A stretch of 64,000 bases of DNA, taken from the NCBI GenBank assembly GCA_029210625.1, contig JARGFU010000013.1:62001-126000 (forward strand). Direction: 5' to 3'. This DNA is from Deltaproteobacteria bacterium. GTDB taxonomy: Bacteria > Myxococcota > Myxococcia > SLRQ01. A program made the position numbers and the translations under genes. The notes under the pieces were generated by a model. The model was not told the origin of the DNA, made no database searches, and saw only the letters and a list, made by a program, of their open reading frames with translations. Of the stretch, positions 24,388 to 50,404 are shown one piece after another. Every line of letters starts with the position of its first letter. Position 1 is the first letter of the stretch.

Positions 24388-25500
24388 CTACATGCAGATC
24401 CCGTTGTTGGGATCGCCGACGTTCGTGCAGGTCAGGCCGGTCGGGCAGGTCGGGGTCGCCAGCGGGCAGACGATGGCGCAGTAGGTCGGATCCGCCCCGG
24501 TGGCGGTCGTGATCACGCACTGCGAGGTCATGCTCTCGACCGTGGGGCAGTCGGTGGCCTCGGTGGCGGGCGTGCAGCCGGGCATGCAGATGCCGGGCTG
24601 GCCGGAACCGAAGCTCAGGCAGTCCAGGCCGGCCTGGCAGTTGCCCGCGGTGCCGCCGCACTCGGCGAAGGCGCCCTGGTCACCGGTGGCCGGGGTGTCG
24701 CAGACGCCGAGGTTGTAGCCGGGCTGCAGCTCGATGGCGTTGCCGTTCGAGTCGAGCACGCCCAGGCAGCGCTGATCGCCGGTGCAGGTGGTCTCGCAGG
24801 CGTTGGGCACGCAGGTCTGGAAGCAGGTGGCCGGGGTGGCCTGGTCGAAGGAGGCGCAGACGCCGGCGTTGTCGGCGCCGCAGAAGCCCTGGGTCTGGTT
24901 GCCGCACTCCGCGCCGATGTTCTGGCCGGTGGCCACCAGGGCGCAGACGTCGGTGCAGTCGGCGGGGCAGCCGGTGATGGTCTCGCCCGGATCGCAGGTG
25001 CCGTTGCCGCAGGTGATGGGGCAGTCGGCGGCGCAGTTGGTGTTGGTCTCGCCGGCGTCGCAGACGCCGTTGCCGCAGGTGGTGTTGCAGTCGGCGGCGC
25101 AGTTCGCCGGGGTCTCGCCCGCGTCACAGGTGCCGTTGTTGTTGCAGACGACCGGGCAGTCGGCGGCGCAGCTGGTGGAGGTCTCACCGGCGTCGCAGGT
25201 GCCGTTGTTGTTGCAGGTGACCGGGCAGTCGTTCGGGCAGTTGTCCGAGTTCTCGCCGGCGTTGCAGGTGCCGTTGTTGTTGCAGACCGGGCAGTCCGCC
25301 GAGCAGGTGGCCGAGGTCTCACCCGCGTCGCAGGTGCCGTTGCCGCAGCTCTCGGCGCAGTCGGCCGAGCAGGAGCTGGCGTCCTCGCCGGCCTCGCAGG
25401 TGCCGTTGCCGCAGACGGCGTCGTCGTCGTCCTTGCCACCGCAGGCCGTGAGGGAGAGAGCGAGCAGGAAGATGGGGAGCAGGCGGAACATCGACTTCAT
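24388..25500 (-). CDS. Cys-rich lipoprotein with seven CGNGxCDxGE-type repeats
   Basis: 370 residues. Lipobox LSLTAC (Cys20), then an acidic GGKDDDD linker. Seven repeats of about 18-20 residues follow (about 29-165), each of form C(G/NN)NGTCDAGE ending in CxxDC, with four or so Cys per repeat, so each is probably disulfide-bonded and perhaps calcium-binding. The C-terminal 200 residues hold more paired Cys, for example ACETTCTGDQRCLG. Such repeats are common in secreted myxobacterial proteins. ATG has AGGAGGAG upstream. Exported to the envelope; function unknown. Confidence 0.85.
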   Translation of the reverse strand: MKSMFRLLPIFLLALSLTACGGKDDDDAVCGNGTCEAGEDASSCSADCAESCGNGTCDAGETSATCSADCPVCNNNGTCNAGENSDNCPNDCPVTCNNNGTCDAGETSTSCAADCPVVCNNNGTCDAGETPANCAADCNTTCGNGVCDAGETNTNCAADCPITCGNGTCDPGETITGCPADCTDVCALVATGQNIGAECGNQTQGFCGADNAGVCASFDQATPATCFQTCVPNACETTCTGDQRCLGVLDSNGNAIELQPGYNLGVCDTPATGDQGAFAECGGTAGNCQAGLDCLSFGSGQPGICMPGCTPATEATDCPTVESMTSQCVITTATGADPTYCAIVCPLATPTCPTGLTCTNVGDPNNGICM

Positions 25501-43561: not shown

Positions 43562-45949
43562 ATGCAGCGCGTGCTCTCGACCCTCGCCCTGGCCGTCCTC
43601 CCGCTCCTGCTGACGGCCTGCCCCCCGAAGGACCACGTCCGCCTCTACCACACCGAGCCGATCGCGCCCTCGCTCTCCATCGAGCAGGTCGAGAGCCTCT
43701 CGGTGCTGGGCTCGACCCGCATCGACGACGGCGTGAACTTCTCGGTCTTCTCGGGCAACGCCACCCGGATGGACCTCCTCCTCTTCGACGACCCCGAGGC
43801 GACGGTGCCCACCCGGCAGTTCGAGATGGTCCGCCACGGCGACGCCTGGAACCTCTTCGTCGAGGGGATCGGCCTCGGGCAGCACTACGGCTTCCTCGCC
43901 TGGGGGCCGAACTGGGAGGTCCACCCCGACTGGGAGCTCGGCCGCATCGAGGGCTTCGTCGCCGACGTGGACAGCCTGGGCAACCGCTTCGATCCCAACA
44001 AGCTCCTCTTCGACCCCTACACTCGCGCCTTCCACCGGGATCACGACTGGAGCAAGGGCAGCACCGCCAGCGGCCCCGCGCGCACCCAGTCGACGGTCGC
44101 CGCCGCCTCCAAGTCGGTGATCGTCGAGAGCGAGTACGTCTGGAGCGAGAACGAGACCACCTGGCGCGAGTCCCGCAGGGACCGGGCGATGCCCGGGCAC
44201 CGCTGGGAGGACATGATCCTCTACGAGGTGCACGCGAAGGGCTTCACGGCCGACCCCGCCTCGGGGGTCGATCACCCGGGCACCTACCGGGGCTTCGGCG
44301 AGAAGGCCGACTACCTGGCCGACCTCGGCATCACCGCCGTCGAGCTGATGCCGGTGATGGAGAAGCCCCTCGACGGAGGCTACTGGGGCTACAACACCCT
44401 CGGCTTCTTCGCGCCGGAGCTCTCCTACGCCTCCGACAAGCGGCCGGGGAAGGTGATGGACGAGTTCAAGTGGATGGTCGACGAGCTGCACCAGCGCGGC
44501 ATCGAGGTCATCCTCGACGTGGTCTACAACCACACCGGCGAGGGCGGGCTCTGGCGGGAGAAGCTCGAGCTCGCCGACGCCCACGAGCTCGACGCCAGCA
44601 CGGCCGCCGAGCTGGCCAACCTCGATCCCAAGGAGGTCGCGGGCCTCTACAGCTACCGGGGCCTCGACAACGCCTCCTACTACGCGCTCTCGGATCAGGA
44701 CGCGGGCTTCTACAACAACAACACCGGGGTCGGTAACACGACCCGCTGCAACTACCGGCCGATGGAGCAGCTGATCCTCGACAGCTTGCGCTTCTGGGTC
44801 GAGGAGATGCACGTCGACGGCTTCCGCTTCGACCTGGCGGTGATCCTGGGCGAGAAGGATCGCGACTACACCCGCTGGGACACGGTCGAGAACACGATGC
44901 TGATGAAGATCCTCCAGGATCCCGTCATCGTGGAGAACAACGTCCGGATCATCTCCGAGCCCTGGGCGATCTCGGGCTTCTACCTGGGCCAGTTCCCGAA
45001 GGCGCCGAGCGGCGACCAGGCCTGGTACGAGTGGAACGGCCACTTCCGGGACGTCTGGCGCAGCTTCGTGAACAACGACGGCTGGGCGATGAACTCCCGG
45101 GAGGGCGCGGTCGACTTCGGCGGCACCATGACCGGCTCCTACGATCTCTTCGGCGACGACGGGCGGGGACCGCACCACTCGATCAACTTCGTGACGGTCC
45201 ACGACGGCTTCACCCTCTACGACCTCTTCACCTACGACAACAAGCAGAACGGCTGCAGCCCGCTGAACCCCGACTGCTGCGACGCCCGCCTCTCGGCCTG
45301 GTGCGATCCGGCGAGCGGCGAGGACAACAACCGCTCTCGCGACTGGGGCTCGAACAACGAGCCCTTCAAGCGCCAGCAGATGCGCAACCTCTTCGCGGCG
45401 ATGCTGCTCGCCCAGGGGACGCCCTTGATCCTCGGCGGCGACGAGTGGATGCGCACCCAGCTCGGCAACAACAACGCCTACTACACCCGGGCCGACAACC
45501 CGAACTCCTGGTACCAGTGGGGCACCTACCAGGCGCAGAACGAGCGGCGGCGGATGCACGACTTCGTCCGTCAGCTCATCGCCCTGCGCAAGGAGCACGC
45601 CTGGGCCTTCGCCCGCAGCGACTACGCCGCGCCCCCCACCTGGCTGGACGCCGGCGGCGGCACGAACCCCAACTGGGGCGGCCGCCACATCGCCCTGCGC
45701 TACAACCACCCCGCCGGCGGGCCCGGCCTGCTGGTGCTGGTGAACATGGAGCTCGGGCCGGTCGACTTCCAGCTGCCCGCGGGCAACTGGACGCGCCTGG
45801 TGGACACCCAGCTCTGGTTCGACGACCAGCCCTACTTCGAGCAGAGCGGGGCCGATCCGACCCGCTCGGCGAACGCGTTCCCGGAGCCGGTCGGCACCGC
45901 CACCTACGGGGTGCAGAGCCGCTCGATCGTGGTGCTGGTCTCTTCCTGA
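43562..45949 (+). CDS. Isoamylase/glycogen-debranching-type (GH13_11) lipoprotein
   Basis: 795 residues. Lipobox PLLLTAC (Cys20), so it is exported, unlike cytoplasmic GlgX. N-terminal CBM48 at about 50-140 (DDGVNFSVFSGNATRMDLLLF), then the GH13 barrel: VILDVVYNHTGEGG, HVDGFRFDLAVILGEKD, RIISEPWAI and FVTVHDGFTLYDLF, all with the catalytic Asp/Glu/Asp. It should hydrolyse alpha-1,6 branches of starch outside the cell. TAAGGT lies 9 bases before the ATG. First gene of the starch locus. Confidence 0.93.
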   Translation: MQRVLSTLALAVLPLLLTACPPKDHVRLYHTEPIAPSLSIEQVESLSVLGSTRIDDGVNFSVFSGNATRMDLLLFDDPEATVPTRQFEMVRHGDAWNLFVEGIGLGQHYGFLAWGPNWEVHPDWELGRIEGFVADVDSLGNRFDPNKLLFDPYTRAFHRDHDWSKGSTASGPARTQSTVAAASKSVIVESEYVWSENETTWRESRRDRAMPGHRWEDMILYEVHAKGFTADPASGVDHPGTYRGFGEKADYLADLGITAVELMPVMEKPLDGGYWGYNTLGFFAPELSYASDKRPGKVMDEFKWMVDELHQRGIEVILDVVYNHTGEGGLWREKLELADAHELDASTAAELANLDPKEVAGLYSYRGLDNASYYALSDQDAGFYNNNTGVGNTTRCNYRPMEQLILDSLRFWVEEMHVDGFRFDLAVILGEKDRDYTRWDTVENTMLMKILQDPVIVENNVRIISEPWAISGFYLGQFPKAPSGDQAWYEWNGHFRDVWRSFVNNDGWAMNSREGAVDFGGTMTGSYDLFGDDGRGPHHSINFVTVHDGFTLYDLFTYDNKQNGCSPLNPDCCDARLSAWCDPASGEDNNRSRDWGSNNEPFKRQQMRNLFAAMLLAQGTPLILGGDEWMRTQLGNNNAYYTRADNPNSWYQWGTYQAQNERRRMHDFVRQLIALRKEHAWAFARSDYAAPPTWLDAGGGTNPNWGGRHIALRYNHPAGGPGLLVLVNMELGPVDFQLPAGNWTRLVDTQLWFDDQPYFEQSGADPTRSANAFPEPVGTATYGVQSRSIVVLVSS

Positions 45950-45974: not shown

Positions 45975-47480
45975 ATGCTCCCCAGACGCCTCTCGATCCT
46001 CCTTGTGCTCGCTCTCCTGGCGCCCGCGGCGGCGTCCGCGGAGGTCTCGCGGCCCCGGGCCGAGGTGGCCGGCTACTTCCGGATCATGACCCGCCCCGAC
46101 CTCCAGGGCGGCGACGGCCGGCTGGGCTTCTGGAACCTCTACGGCCGGCTAATGAACGAGGGGCCCTGGGCCTCGCTCGAGCTGCGGGTGGATCTGCTCC
46201 AGGCGCAGGACGCGCGGGACCCCTGGGTGAGCGTCCACTACAAGATCGAGGGCGGCTCGGTGATGAACGCCGACGCCGGGCAGGGGGCCCTGGCCGCCTT
46301 CCGGATGAGCCAGCTCTACGCGCGGGCCGGCAACGTGCTGGGGCAGGGCGTCGAGTGGCAGCTGGGCACCCTCGACACCTGGATGGGCGATCTGGCCCTC
46401 TACGATCAGAAGCCGGCCCAGCTCTTCTTCGACACCCTGGGCCTCTCGGCCACCCTCAAGCGACGGCGCTTCGATCTCACCGTGGGCCTGGGTGACGCGG
46501 GCTTCGCGATCCGCGGCCGCGACTACAGCCCGGTGCTCACCGCCGGCCTGCTGGCCCGCCTGCGCCTCGGCGGCCACCTCGAGCTGGGCGGCGGCGGCCA
46601 GACCTTCTACGAGCCCGAGGTCGCCGGCAACCGCAACTCGCCCCACACCACGGCGAACCTCACCTACGAGAACTTCATCCGGCGGGAGGTGGTCTCCAGC
46701 TACCTCCAGCAGAACCCGGGCAGCGAGGATCTCTTCTACGACGACAACGTCGCCAGCAGCACCTACGCCAGCTCCTACAAGGTGGTGGGCTACCTGGGCT
46801 TCGGCGGCTTCGGGCCGCTCACCTGGAACAACCTCTTCGCCAACCTCTCCCGCCTGCACCCCGAGGTCTCCACCACCGAGACCGTCGTGGGCCGGGACTA
46901 CACCCTCTACGTCAGCAGCCTCACCGACCAGCGCTTCCAGCTCACCATCGGCAACGAGGCGCAGCTGAAGATCCTGCCCGAGCGCCTCGACGCCATCTGG
47001 GCCCTGCTCTACGGGCGCCAGTGGAACGACGACAACGAGATCGCGGCCGGCGAGGACAACCGCACCTTCCTCTCCAGCGTGCTGCGCCTCCAGCTCTACC
47101 TGACGCCCTCGCTCCACCTCCTCCTCGAGAGCTCCCTGGCCCGCGAGCGGAGCCTGAACGGCAACCTCTGGCGGCAGGCCCACGACTCGATCTTCCAGAG
47201 CAGCGTGGGGCAGGCCGACGCCCGGGGGCTGGAGTTCGGCGACACCGACACCCGCGACACCTGGCAGGTGAAGTTCGGCCCCGTCCTGAACCCCAGGGGC
47301 TACGGCATCTTCTCCCGGCCCTCCCTGCGGCTCCTCTTCGGGCTGCAGCGCTCGAGCATCCACCAGGCCTTCGGCTCCACGGTGGTCGACTCCCTCTCCG
47401 ACAACGAGATCCTCCAGCACGAGGCGACGAGCCGGTACCAGCACGCGGTGATCGCGCTCGAGGCGGAGGCGTGGTTCTGA
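45975..47480 (+). CDS. Outer-membrane beta-barrel porin-like protein
   Basis: 501 residues. Signal peptide MLPRRLSILLVLALLAPAAA. The rest alternates hydrophobic and polar residues in many short strands (for example LLARLRLGGHLELGGGGQTF and LLFGLQRSSI) and ends in an aromatic residue, EAEAWF, the typical outer-membrane insertion signal. Between an isoamylase and an amylase it likely passes maltodextrins, like maltoporin, but it was not recognised as LamB by sequence. TAGGCT lies 9 bases before the ATG. Stop TGA overlaps the next ATG by one base. Confidence 0.8.
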   Translation: MLPRRLSILLVLALLAPAAASAEVSRPRAEVAGYFRIMTRPDLQGGDGRLGFWNLYGRLMNEGPWASLELRVDLLQAQDARDPWVSVHYKIEGGSVMNADAGQGALAAFRMSQLYARAGNVLGQGVEWQLGTLDTWMGDLALYDQKPAQLFFDTLGLSATLKRRRFDLTVGLGDAGFAIRGRDYSPVLTAGLLARLRLGGHLELGGGGQTFYEPEVAGNRNSPHTTANLTYENFIRREVVSSYLQQNPGSEDLFYDDNVASSTYASSYKVVGYLGFGGFGPLTWNNLFANLSRLHPEVSTTETVVGRDYTLYVSSLTDQRFQLTIGNEAQLKILPERLDAIWALLYGRQWNDDNEIAAGEDNRTFLSSVLRLQLYLTPSLHLLLESSLARERSLNGNLWRQAHDSIFQSSVGQADARGLEFGDTDTRDTWQVKFGPVLNPRGYGIFSRPSLRLLFGLQRSSIHQAFGSTVVDSLSDNEILQHEATSRYQHAVIALEAEAWF

Positions 47481-49258
47481 TGGCGAGGGGCTCTCAGCTC
47501 TCAGCTCTCAGCTCTCAGCTTTCAAACGCCACGCTCGTGCTCGCGCTCGCGCTCGGGGGGTGTGCCGGGGCCGCACCGAAGCCCGAGGAGCCCCTCGCGA
47601 CCAGGCGGACCGGCCCGCCGGGCCCCGTCTACTTCGTCATGGTCGATCGCTTCGAGAATGGCGATCCCACCAACGACGGGGAGATCGATCCCGCCGATCC
47701 CACCGCCTGGCACGGCGGGGACGTCGCCGGCCTCTCGAGGCGCCTCGACTGGCTGGAGGCGCTCGGAGTGGAGACGGTCTGGACCTCTCCGCTGACCCTC
47801 GGCCGGCGGGAGCCCTTCATGGGGCACGGCGCCTACCACGGCTACTGGGTCCTCGAGCACGGCGAGCCCGACCCCCACCTGGGCACCTGGGAGGAGCTGC
47901 GCGCCCTCTCCGACGCGCTGCGGGCGCGGGGGATGCGCCTCTACCTCGACGCCGTCCTCAACCACGTCTCCTACGAGGCGCCGCTGACGACCCGCCAGCC
48001 CGGCTGGTTCCACGGCCGGGGCGCCATCGAGGACTGGGGCGACCCGGTGCAGCTGGTCGAGGGTGACGTCCACGGGCTGCCCGACCTGGCCGTCGAGCAG
48101 GAGGAGGTCTTCGCCTACCTCGCCGGCACCCTCGACACCTGGATCGAGAAGGTCCGCCCCGCGGGCCTGCGCCTCGACGCGGTGAAGCACCTGCCGGTGA
48201 GCTTCTGGCAGCGGCTGGCCGCGCACCTCCACCAGAAGCACGGCGACGACTTCGAGCTCCTCGGAGAGGATCTGGAGGGCGACCCCTTCCTGCTGGCCGG
48301 GCGCTGGAAGGCGGCGGGCTTCGACTCGGTCTTCGACTTCCCCCTGCGCTACGCGCTGGTCGACGTCGCCTGCAACGACCAGGGAGCGAGCCGCCTGGCC
48401 TCGCTCCTCTCCCTCGACCGGGTCTACGAGCACCCCGAGCGGCTCACCACCCTCCTCGACAACCACGACCTCGCCCGGATCGCCTCCGAGTGCGGCGAGC
48501 CGACGAACATCCGCCTGGCCCTCTCCCTCCTCTACCTGCTGCGGGGCACGCCCTCGCTCCTCTACGGCACCGAGGTCGGCCTGAAGGGCCGCACGGAGCT
48601 GGAGGTGCGCGCGGACATGCGCTTCGAGGCGGACCACCCCCTGCGGGCCCACGTGGCGGCCCTCGCCCGGCAGCGGGCCGCGCACCCGGCGCTCTCCCGC
48701 GGCGCGACCCTCATCCTGGAGCTCGAGGCGAGGACCCTGCTCCTCCTGCGGGTCCCGCGGGAGGGGGAGGGGAGCGCGGTGCTGGTGGGCGTGAACGTGA
48801 GCGGCGCGCCGCACACCTTCACCACCCGCGGCGCCCCCGTCGCCCTGCCGGAGGCGACCCTGGAGGTGGGGTCCTGGGACGCGGGGATGGTCGCCCTTCC
48901 GCTGGCGCCGGAGGCCCTCGCCGCCCTGCGCGAGGCGCTGCGGATGCGCGGCACCCTCGAGGCCCCGCGGCAGCGCGAGCTCACCTTCGAGGCGCGGGTG
49001 CCGGGGGTCGGCGAGGACGAGACCGTCCTGCTCTGCGGCTCCGATCCGGCGCTCGGGAGCTGGCGGCCCGAGCGGGCCTTCGAGCTCGAGCCCGTGGGGG
49101 AGGGGGTCTTCCGGGGCACGCTGAGCCTGCCCGAGCCCGCGGTGATCGAGTGGAAGCTCCTGCGGCGGCGGGGCAAGACCTTCACCTGGCAGGGCGGCGC
49201 CAACCGCTCCCTCCACCTCGACGGCGGCGGCGAGGATCGACGGCAGCTCGCCTGGTGA
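47480..49258 (+). CDS. Alpha-amylase family (GH13) lipoprotein with C-terminal starch-binding-like domain
   Basis: 592 residues. Signal peptide with lipobox ALALGGC. GH13 barrel: VYFVMVDRFENGDPTND, LYLDAVLNHVSYE, GLRLDAVKHLPVSF (catalytic Asp), LLGEDLEGDPF and LLDNHDLARI. About 505-592 looks like a CBM20-type module (CGSDPALGSWRPERA). The first 15 codons contain four perfect CTCTCAG heptamers, giving the odd SQLSALSSQLS n-region; gain or loss of one unit would shift frame. Shares TGATG with the porin gene upstream. Confidence 0.9.
   Translation: MARGSQLSALSSQLSNATLVLALALGGCAGAAPKPEEPLATRRTGPPGPVYFVMVDRFENGDPTNDGEIDPADPTAWHGGDVAGLSRRLDWLEALGVETVWTSPLTLGRREPFMGHGAYHGYWVLEHGEPDPHLGTWEELRALSDALRARGMRLYLDAVLNHVSYEAPLTTRQPGWFHGRGAIEDWGDPVQLVEGDVHGLPDLAVEQEEVFAYLAGTLDTWIEKVRPAGLRLDAVKHLPVSFWQRLAAHLHQKHGDDFELLGEDLEGDPFLLAGRWKAAGFDSVFDFPLRYALVDVACNDQGASRLASLLSLDRVYEHPERLTTLLDNHDLARIASECGEPTNIRLALSLLYLLRGTPSLLYGTEVGLKGRTELEVRADMRFEADHPLRAHVAALARQRAAHPALSRGATLILELEARTLLLLRVPREGEGSAVLVGVNVSGAPHTFTTRGAPVALPEATLEVGSWDAGMVALPLAPEALAALREALRMRGTLEAPRQRELTFEARVPGVGEDETVLLCGSDPALGSWRPERAFELEPVGEGVFRGTLSLPEPAVIEWKLLRRRGKTFTWQGGANRSLHLDGGGEDRRQLAW
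47491..47525 (+). repeat. Heptanucleotide tandem repeat inside the amylase start
   Basis: CTCTCAG is repeated four times exactly (47491-47518), followed by a degenerate CTTTCAA. The unit is not a multiple of three and lies 4-15 codons after the ATG. Confidence 0.9.
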
Positions 49259-49291: not shown

Positions 49292-50404
49292 ATGGCCACC
49301 CTGCAGCTCTCCAAGATCCAGAAGTCCTTCGGCCGCACCGAGGTCCTGCGCGACGTCGAGCTGCAGATCGCCGACGGGGAGTTCGTGGTGCTCGTCGGCC
49401 CCAGCGGCTGCGGCAAGTCCACCCTCCTGCGCTGCATCGCCGGCCTGGAGACGATCTCCTCCGGCGAGCTGCAGATCGGTGAGCGGGTGGTGAACGACGT
49501 CGCCCCCAAGGACCGGGACATCGCCATGGTCTTCCAGTCCTACGCCCTCTACCCCCACATGAAAGTGCGGGAGAACCTGGCCTTCGGCCTGAAGATGCGC
49601 GGGATGCCGGCGGGCGAGATCGCCGAGCGGGTCGGCGAGGCAGCCTCGGTGCTGGGCCTCGAGGCCCTGCTGGATCGCTTCCCCAAGCAGCTCTCGGGCG
49701 GGCAGCGGCAGCGCGTCGCGATGGGGCGGGCGCTGGTGCGCCACCCCTCGGTCTACCTCTTCGACGAGCCCCTCTCGAACCTCGACGCCGCCCTGCGGGT
49801 GCAGATGCGCGCCGAGCTGGCGCGCCTCCACCAGCGCACCCGCACCACGATGATCTACGTCACCCACGATCAGGTCGAGGCGATGACCCTCGCCGACCGT
49901 ATCGTGGTGCTCGAGGGCGGGATCGTGCAGCAGGTGGGGCCGCCCCTCACGCTCTACGCCGAGCCCGTCAACAAGTTCGTCGCCGGCTTCATCGGCTCAC
50001 CCGCCATGAACTTCCTCCCGGCCCAGATGCTGGGGGAGGACGAGGCGGAGGGCCGGGGCTGGGTCGAGGTCCTCGGGGCCAGGCTCCTCCTGCCGGCCGG
50101 CCGCAAGCTGGCCGCGGTGGGGCAGCGCCTGGAGCTGGGCATCCGCCCCGAGCACCTGGTGGTGCAGCCCGGCGAGGAGGGCGACCTCTCGGGCCGGGTG
50201 GAGGTGGTCGAGCCGATGGGCTTCGAGATGCACCTGCACTTGCGCCTCTTGCCCGGGGCGGGCGAGGAGGAGGGGCCGATCGTGGTGGTCCGGGCCGAGG
50301 CCGCGAAGGTCGGCGCCGTCGCGCCCGGCGATCTGCGGGGCCTGGACCTGCCCCCCGAGCACCTGCACCTCTTCGACGCCGGCTCGGGCGAGGCGATCCG
50401 CTAG
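49292..50404 (+). CDS. malK: Maltodextrin-type ABC transporter ATPase (MalK/UgpC family)
   Basis: 370 residues. Walker A GPSGCGKST, signature LSGGQRQRVAMGRAL, Walker B VYLFDEPLSNLDA, switch His in YVTHDQVEAMTLAD, and a C-terminal TOBE/OB regulatory domain (about 235-365). Powers sugar uptake through the EAA loops of MalF and MalG, encoded 5 kb further on. Stop shares a CTAG with the opposing gene. Sugar specificity is inferred from context. Confidence 0.93.
   Translation: MATLQLSKIQKSFGRTEVLRDVELQIADGEFVVLVGPSGCGKSTLLRCIAGLETISSGELQIGERVVNDVAPKDRDIAMVFQSYALYPHMKVRENLAFGLKMRGMPAGEIAERVGEAASVLGLEALLDRFPKQLSGGQRQRVAMGRALVRHPSVYLFDEPLSNLDAALRVQMRAELARLHQRTRTTMIYVTHDQVEAMTLADRIVVLEGGIVQQVGPPLTLYAEPVNKFVAGFIGSPAMNFLPAQMLGEDEAEGRGWVEVLGARLLLPAGRKLAAVGQRLELGIRPEHLVVQPGEEGDLSGRVEVVEPMGFEMHLHLRLLPGAGEEEGPIVVVRAEAAKVGAVAPGDLRGLDLPPEHLHLFDAGSGEAIR

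Follow-up and report, generated by a model that had tools for sequence, protein, structure and literature searches.

Near the start of an amylase gene, within a maltodextrin cluster of a deltaproteobacterium (Myxococcota), lies a short tract of heptanucleotide repeats that reads as part of the predicted protein. Repeats of this kind can switch genes on and off, and an earlier note had proposed that this one may phase-vary a surface amylase. We therefore asked whether the tract is a switch, or whether it reached the gene by another route. The window, as we call the whole stretch of DNA that was analysed, is 64,000 nt long; the features that matter here are the following, all on the + strand.

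43562..45949, +, lipoprotein with GH13 and CBM48 domains (pullulanase/debranching-like), first gene of the maltodextrin cluster (Pfam PF00128 and PF02922; N-terminus MQRVLSTLALAVLPLLLTAC)
45975..47480, +, LamB-like porin (Pfam PF02264, E 6.8e-6), which adjoins the amylase in relatives too
47478..47482, +, TGATG, the porin stop overlapping the amylase start; in relatives the matching TGGTTCTGATG opens a gene for a small lipoprotein, absent from this locus
47480..49258, +, GH13 alpha-amylase with C-terminal CBM20, a predicted lipoprotein of 592 aa (Pfam PF00128, E 1.8e-37, and PF00686)
47490..47517, +, four exact GCTCTCA heptads (sequence, TRF, simulation and frame calculation)
47518..47524, +, fifth heptad, the variant GCTTTCA, present also in other arrays of the AGCTNNN family described below
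47525..47563, +, signal-peptide h-region and lipobox, NATLVLALALGGC, with Cys28 (sequence and alignment)
49292..50404, +, MalK-type ABC transporter ATPase (Pfam ABC_tran, TOBE_2 and OB_MalK)

The tract is real and well above chance. TRF reports it at 47490-47524 with period 7, 5.0 copies and 96% matches, and the exact period-7 run covers 31 nt (47490-47520), as against a longest run of 21 nt in 200 Markov-simulated windows. The window contains no second exact heptamer run with at least three copies; a 66-nt/135-nt tandem array lies elsewhere in it, at 24955-25414 (77% matches, TRF). These results bear out the earlier count of four exact CTCTCAG units in codons 4-15 of the gene, which is intact and in which the repeat encodes the peptide SQLSALSSQLS. 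The exact (CTCTCAG)n string has no second occurrence in the 6.1 Mb genome and is absent from 146 other genomes of the class.

The neighbouring genes, a pullulanase-like GH13 protein, a LamB-like porin and a MalK ATPase, identify the cluster as one for maltodextrin. The catalytic triad (D233, E263 and D330) is present in the amylase and invariant in the alignment, implying that it is a GH13 alpha-amylase. Its ATG is at 47480, and the lipobox LGGC occupies codons 25-28, downstream of the repeat. Cys28 is invariant among the window protein and six homologues, these having been chosen as lipoproteins. A signal peptide and lipobox cysteine thus predict a bacterial lipoprotein, and the enzyme may sit at the surface, a placement for which the lipobox is the evidence.

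To describe the effect of unit number, we placed 0-11 exact units in the amylase gene and calculated the reading frame. The full-length amylase is encoded at only 1, 4, 7 or 10 units; every other count yields a truncated product of 95-211 aa. Gain or loss of one exact unit therefore shifts the frame upstream of the lipobox, in agreement with the frame part of the earlier proposal that a one-unit change disables the enzyme. A non-triplet repeat in coding sequence that changes frame with each unit is what a contingency locus has. In its + orientation the heptad has a stop codon in no frame, so that the array itself never ends translation.

The junction between porin and amylase, compared across 52 loci that have both genes (some genomes being counted twice, across two collections), differs strikingly in the window. 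All 52 loci have, between the two, either a gene for a small lipoprotein (about 180 aa) or the same domain as a fusion with the amylase, and the distance from the porin stop to the conserved amylase start is 555-780 nt, versus 150 nt in the window. Here the middle gene is missing and the heptad array directly follows the porin stop. The relatives matched in the homologue search are mainly Myxococcaceae. At one of these loci (L052) the order is porin, TGATG, small lipoprotein, TAATG, amylase lipoprotein; in Myxococcus and the sister genus the small lipoprotein forms an N-terminal domain of the amylase itself. Several relatives share TGGTTCTGATG at the porin end, where it opens the small lipoprotein gene, and so the amylase may have taken over the old start codon of that gene, with the array bridging the join. 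In an Archangium MAG, the amylase homologue has an open frame, TPSPSGRGVGVREL, just before its signal peptide (L046, about 950-1010); this resembles a translated intergenic repeat and is possibly a parallel case.

The genome does retain a homologue of the small lipoprotein, intact and single, on another contig (G000:C2:48343-48885; L252 8343-8885). We considered whether the middle gene had been moved there by recombination between arrays, but found no heptad array or heptad pair near the C2 copy and set the idea aside. That copy could instead be a paralogue. The small lipoprotein homologues match no Pfam family.

Where, then, does the array come from? The exact pattern made the tract look unique, and it was a degenerate pattern that revealed a family. 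AGCTNTCAGCTNTCAGC, with one position free, occurs at 86 places genome-wide at no more than one mismatch (control, 0), and AGCTNNNx3-AGCT, a three-spacer pattern, at 71 (control, 1). The family is patchily distributed: there are no AGCTNNN arrays in the nearest relative, from the sister genus (G001), matches occur in only 2 of 144 further Myxococcia-like genomes searched, and outside the class two more genomes of the phylum (G165 and G194) have a few arrays of the NTC kind. TCGANNN heptad arrays, seen in control counts, are numerous in other genomes of the class (G107, with 55 matches, G142, G012 and G063), so that lineages seem to own separate palindrome-core heptad families.

We sampled 55 AGCTNNN arrays, including the amylase one, from about 0.54 Mb of genome blocks plus targeted stretches; because most sites came from the pattern search, this is a sample of arrays and not of random DNA. 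Genes were called with a self-built, approximate codon-usage finder trained on Pfam-supported genes, which assigns 93% of the sampled sequence to coding regions. All 54 other arrays are intergenic by this finder, overlapping gene 3' ends by at most 8 nt, and the amylase array is the only one of the 55 read as protein. Most arrays lie beside stop codons. Of the 39 gaps that contain arrays, 22 separate convergent genes, compared with 19 of 205 background gaps (9%; p about 1e-12), and where two arrays are neighbours the pair is inverted in 10 of 13 cases. Paired arrays fold into long hairpins beyond shuffled controls (z -3.2 to -13.0). At convergent gene ends, inverted pairs about 20-150 nt apart form such hairpins, for example at L184 2075-2220, L190 2062-2194 and L176 2041-2167 of this genome (G000). 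Some share a common inner sequence (CTCTGCCGTGC...GGCCAGG), which suggests a mobile or copied element. An Rfam search of 20 array loci gave no match. A link to 23S-rRNA intervening proteins was also considered and set aside: the genome has three PF05635 matches, none of them noticed adjoining arrays among the ORFs listed.

Within the family the amylase array is among the purer ones, with its 31-nt exact run. The dominant spacer types are GAN and NYG; the GAG/CTC triplet is rare, and three of its four sampled occurrences are in the amylase array. This concentration argues for local duplication by slippage, and is evidence for past, not present, instability. Past slippage has thus probably changed the copy number here, locally amplifying a rare unit.

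Many short arrays, mostly intergenic and patchy across taxa, place AGCTNNN in the general kind of dispersed intergenic heptamer repeats, within which it stands apart because its triplet varies, its arrays pair in inverted orientation and they favour convergent gene ends. TAACTGA direct repeats are known from Beggiatoaceae, cyanobacteria and Bacteroidetes (MacGregor 2015, PMC4679880); these arrays have 2-6 copies, are mostly intergenic and patchy across taxa, with rare copies in stop-free orientation at protein ends, and a one-base variant, TAGCTGA, is tabulated with the reverse translation SAISYQL (PMC4679880). The likeness is considerable: both form short heptamer arrays scattered through one genome, mostly between genes, with stop-free copies at protein ends; TAGCTGA is a rotation of the AGCTGAT found here, and SAISYQL there recalls SALSSQL here. 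However, AGCTNNN fixes only AGCT and leaves the triplet variable, and its arrays frequently occur as inverted pairs where convergent genes end, whereas TAACTGA lies just upstream of start codons. Given its AGCTNNN unit and its enrichment in convergent gaps at 3' ends, we rejected assigning the family to TAACTGA sensu MacGregor. GGGAATC in Xanthomonas and GGGGA(C/T)T in Nostoc are likewise dispersed intergenic heptamers, many of them within 50 bp of stop codons, that vary in length and sequence between close relatives (PMC4692102). They share with AGCTNNN the dispersed, intergenic location near stop codons, but are G-quadruplex-forming, whereas AGCTNNN units are palindromic and hairpin-forming. 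REP/REPIN/BIME elements are also intergenic, with inverted pairs and 3'-end hairpins; AGCTNNN arrays differ in being built of tandem heptads. REP/REPIN elements are short palindromes mobilised by a linked RAYT; the genome has four Y1_Tnp matches, which may be candidates for such a gene. The literature search, which covered open papers, found no account of AGCTNNN arrays.

Taken with the missing gene at the junction, these observations lead us to propose that an array of the intergenic type, caught in the scar of a rearrangement, is translated as a tolerated n-region of the signal peptide, a reading to which we give a probability of roughly 0.72. The small lipoprotein gene would have been lost or transferred, leaving a porin-amylase junction; a heptad array, of the kind that normally follows stop codons in this genome, would then have filled the junction and become the first codons of the amylase. 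As the array is stop-free in any frame in this orientation, the amylase is presumably translated from the overlapping TGATG, at 47480, straight through it, giving SQLSALSSQLS and then an ordinary signal peptide (MARG...NATLVLALALGGC). SQLSALSSQLS would lengthen the n-region, ahead of the hydrophobic core and the lipobox, in a way that the signal peptide tolerates. A third of the possible unit counts would be compatible with function, and four exact units keep the frame. With four units and a presumably low slippage rate, the copy number is most likely nearly fixed, and the array would not be an evolved switch. What counts against the capture reading is the possible local expansion by slippage, indicated by the pure run and the rare unit, which makes switching possible. 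Two further points against it are that the C2 copy may be a paralogue and that no array or heptad pair lies near that copy, which lends no support to a direct part of the repeat in the rearrangement.

If the locus were phase-variable, as neuO is, slipped-strand mispairing would alter the GCTCTCA count, with 1, 4, 7 and so on ON and all others OFF, and cells with and without amylase would occur side by side in the population. The presence of a non-triplet repeat early in the coding sequence, the truncated products of the OFF counts and the local amplification of a rare unit would all fit, and four units exceed the threshold of three used for heptamers in a survey of H. influenzae (PMC2651432). 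But only four exact units are present. The neuO heptanucleotide of E. coli K1 (AAGACTC) has 3-53 units, 20 being commonest, and its variation has been observed (PMC13001214); its repeat, too, lies early in the coding sequence, has a unit that is not a multiple of three, and leaves the gene ON at every third unit count (PMC13001214). The amylase tract, by comparison, stands at the lower end of the neuO range, is known from one genome and has an intergenic repeat family as its source. The hmw tracts of two H. influenzae strains have 13-38 units (PMC2651432). Genomes with contingency loci commonly, although not necessarily, have several coding ones; here none of the 54 other sampled arrays is coding, implying that there is no set of such loci. 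Arrays equally pure or purer are present in non-coding gaps, so purity is no mark of a switch. Because a dispersed intergenic family and a rearranged junction explain the tract, the claim of a phase-variable locus found no support beyond the frame arithmetic, and we regard it as possible in principle but unlikely. No more credible to us is a variant that joins the two ideas, in which a captured, possibly mobile intergenic array has become a working slippage switch for the extracellular amylase, a contingency locus at birth and with no other in the sampled genome.

The family's habits also suggest a role in RNA or DNA. The array could be an element of the porin 3' end (an attenuator, an mRNA 3' stabiliser or a protein-binding site) that sets the porin/amylase ratio, its translation being incidental, as might be expected from the clustering of family arrays beside stop codons and in convergent gaps and from the strong folding of paired arrays. 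The amylase array, however, is unpaired and its surroundings fold no better than shuffles (z -0.35), and porin and amylase are co-directional, with stop and start overlapping; we consider this role unlikely. Finally, translation might begin 3' of the array, at the GTG at 47537, which would make the repeat a non-coding spacer. Codon-usage scoring prefers this start: codons 5-15, the repeat, score as non-coding (-14.9) and the rest of the gene as coding, which is why the gene finder starts the amylase after the array. But this start would leave only MLALALGG before the lipobox cysteine, fewer residues than a signal peptide needs; the signal peptides of homologous lipoproteins are longer (for example MTRALLLLALLLLASGC), and the TGATG coupling favours 47480, making a GTG start very improbable.

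If the capture reading is right, a coding heptamer need not be a switch, a warning for the interpretation of such repeats. The AGCTNNN family, of which the open literature searched seems to contain no description, may represent a class of 3'-end element in this lineage. At the amylase, a simple-sequence repeat would have entered a gene by capture of a stop-free intergenic array when a neighbouring gene was lost, rather than by slow growth in coding DNA, and such capture is a plausible route by which phase-variable loci are born.
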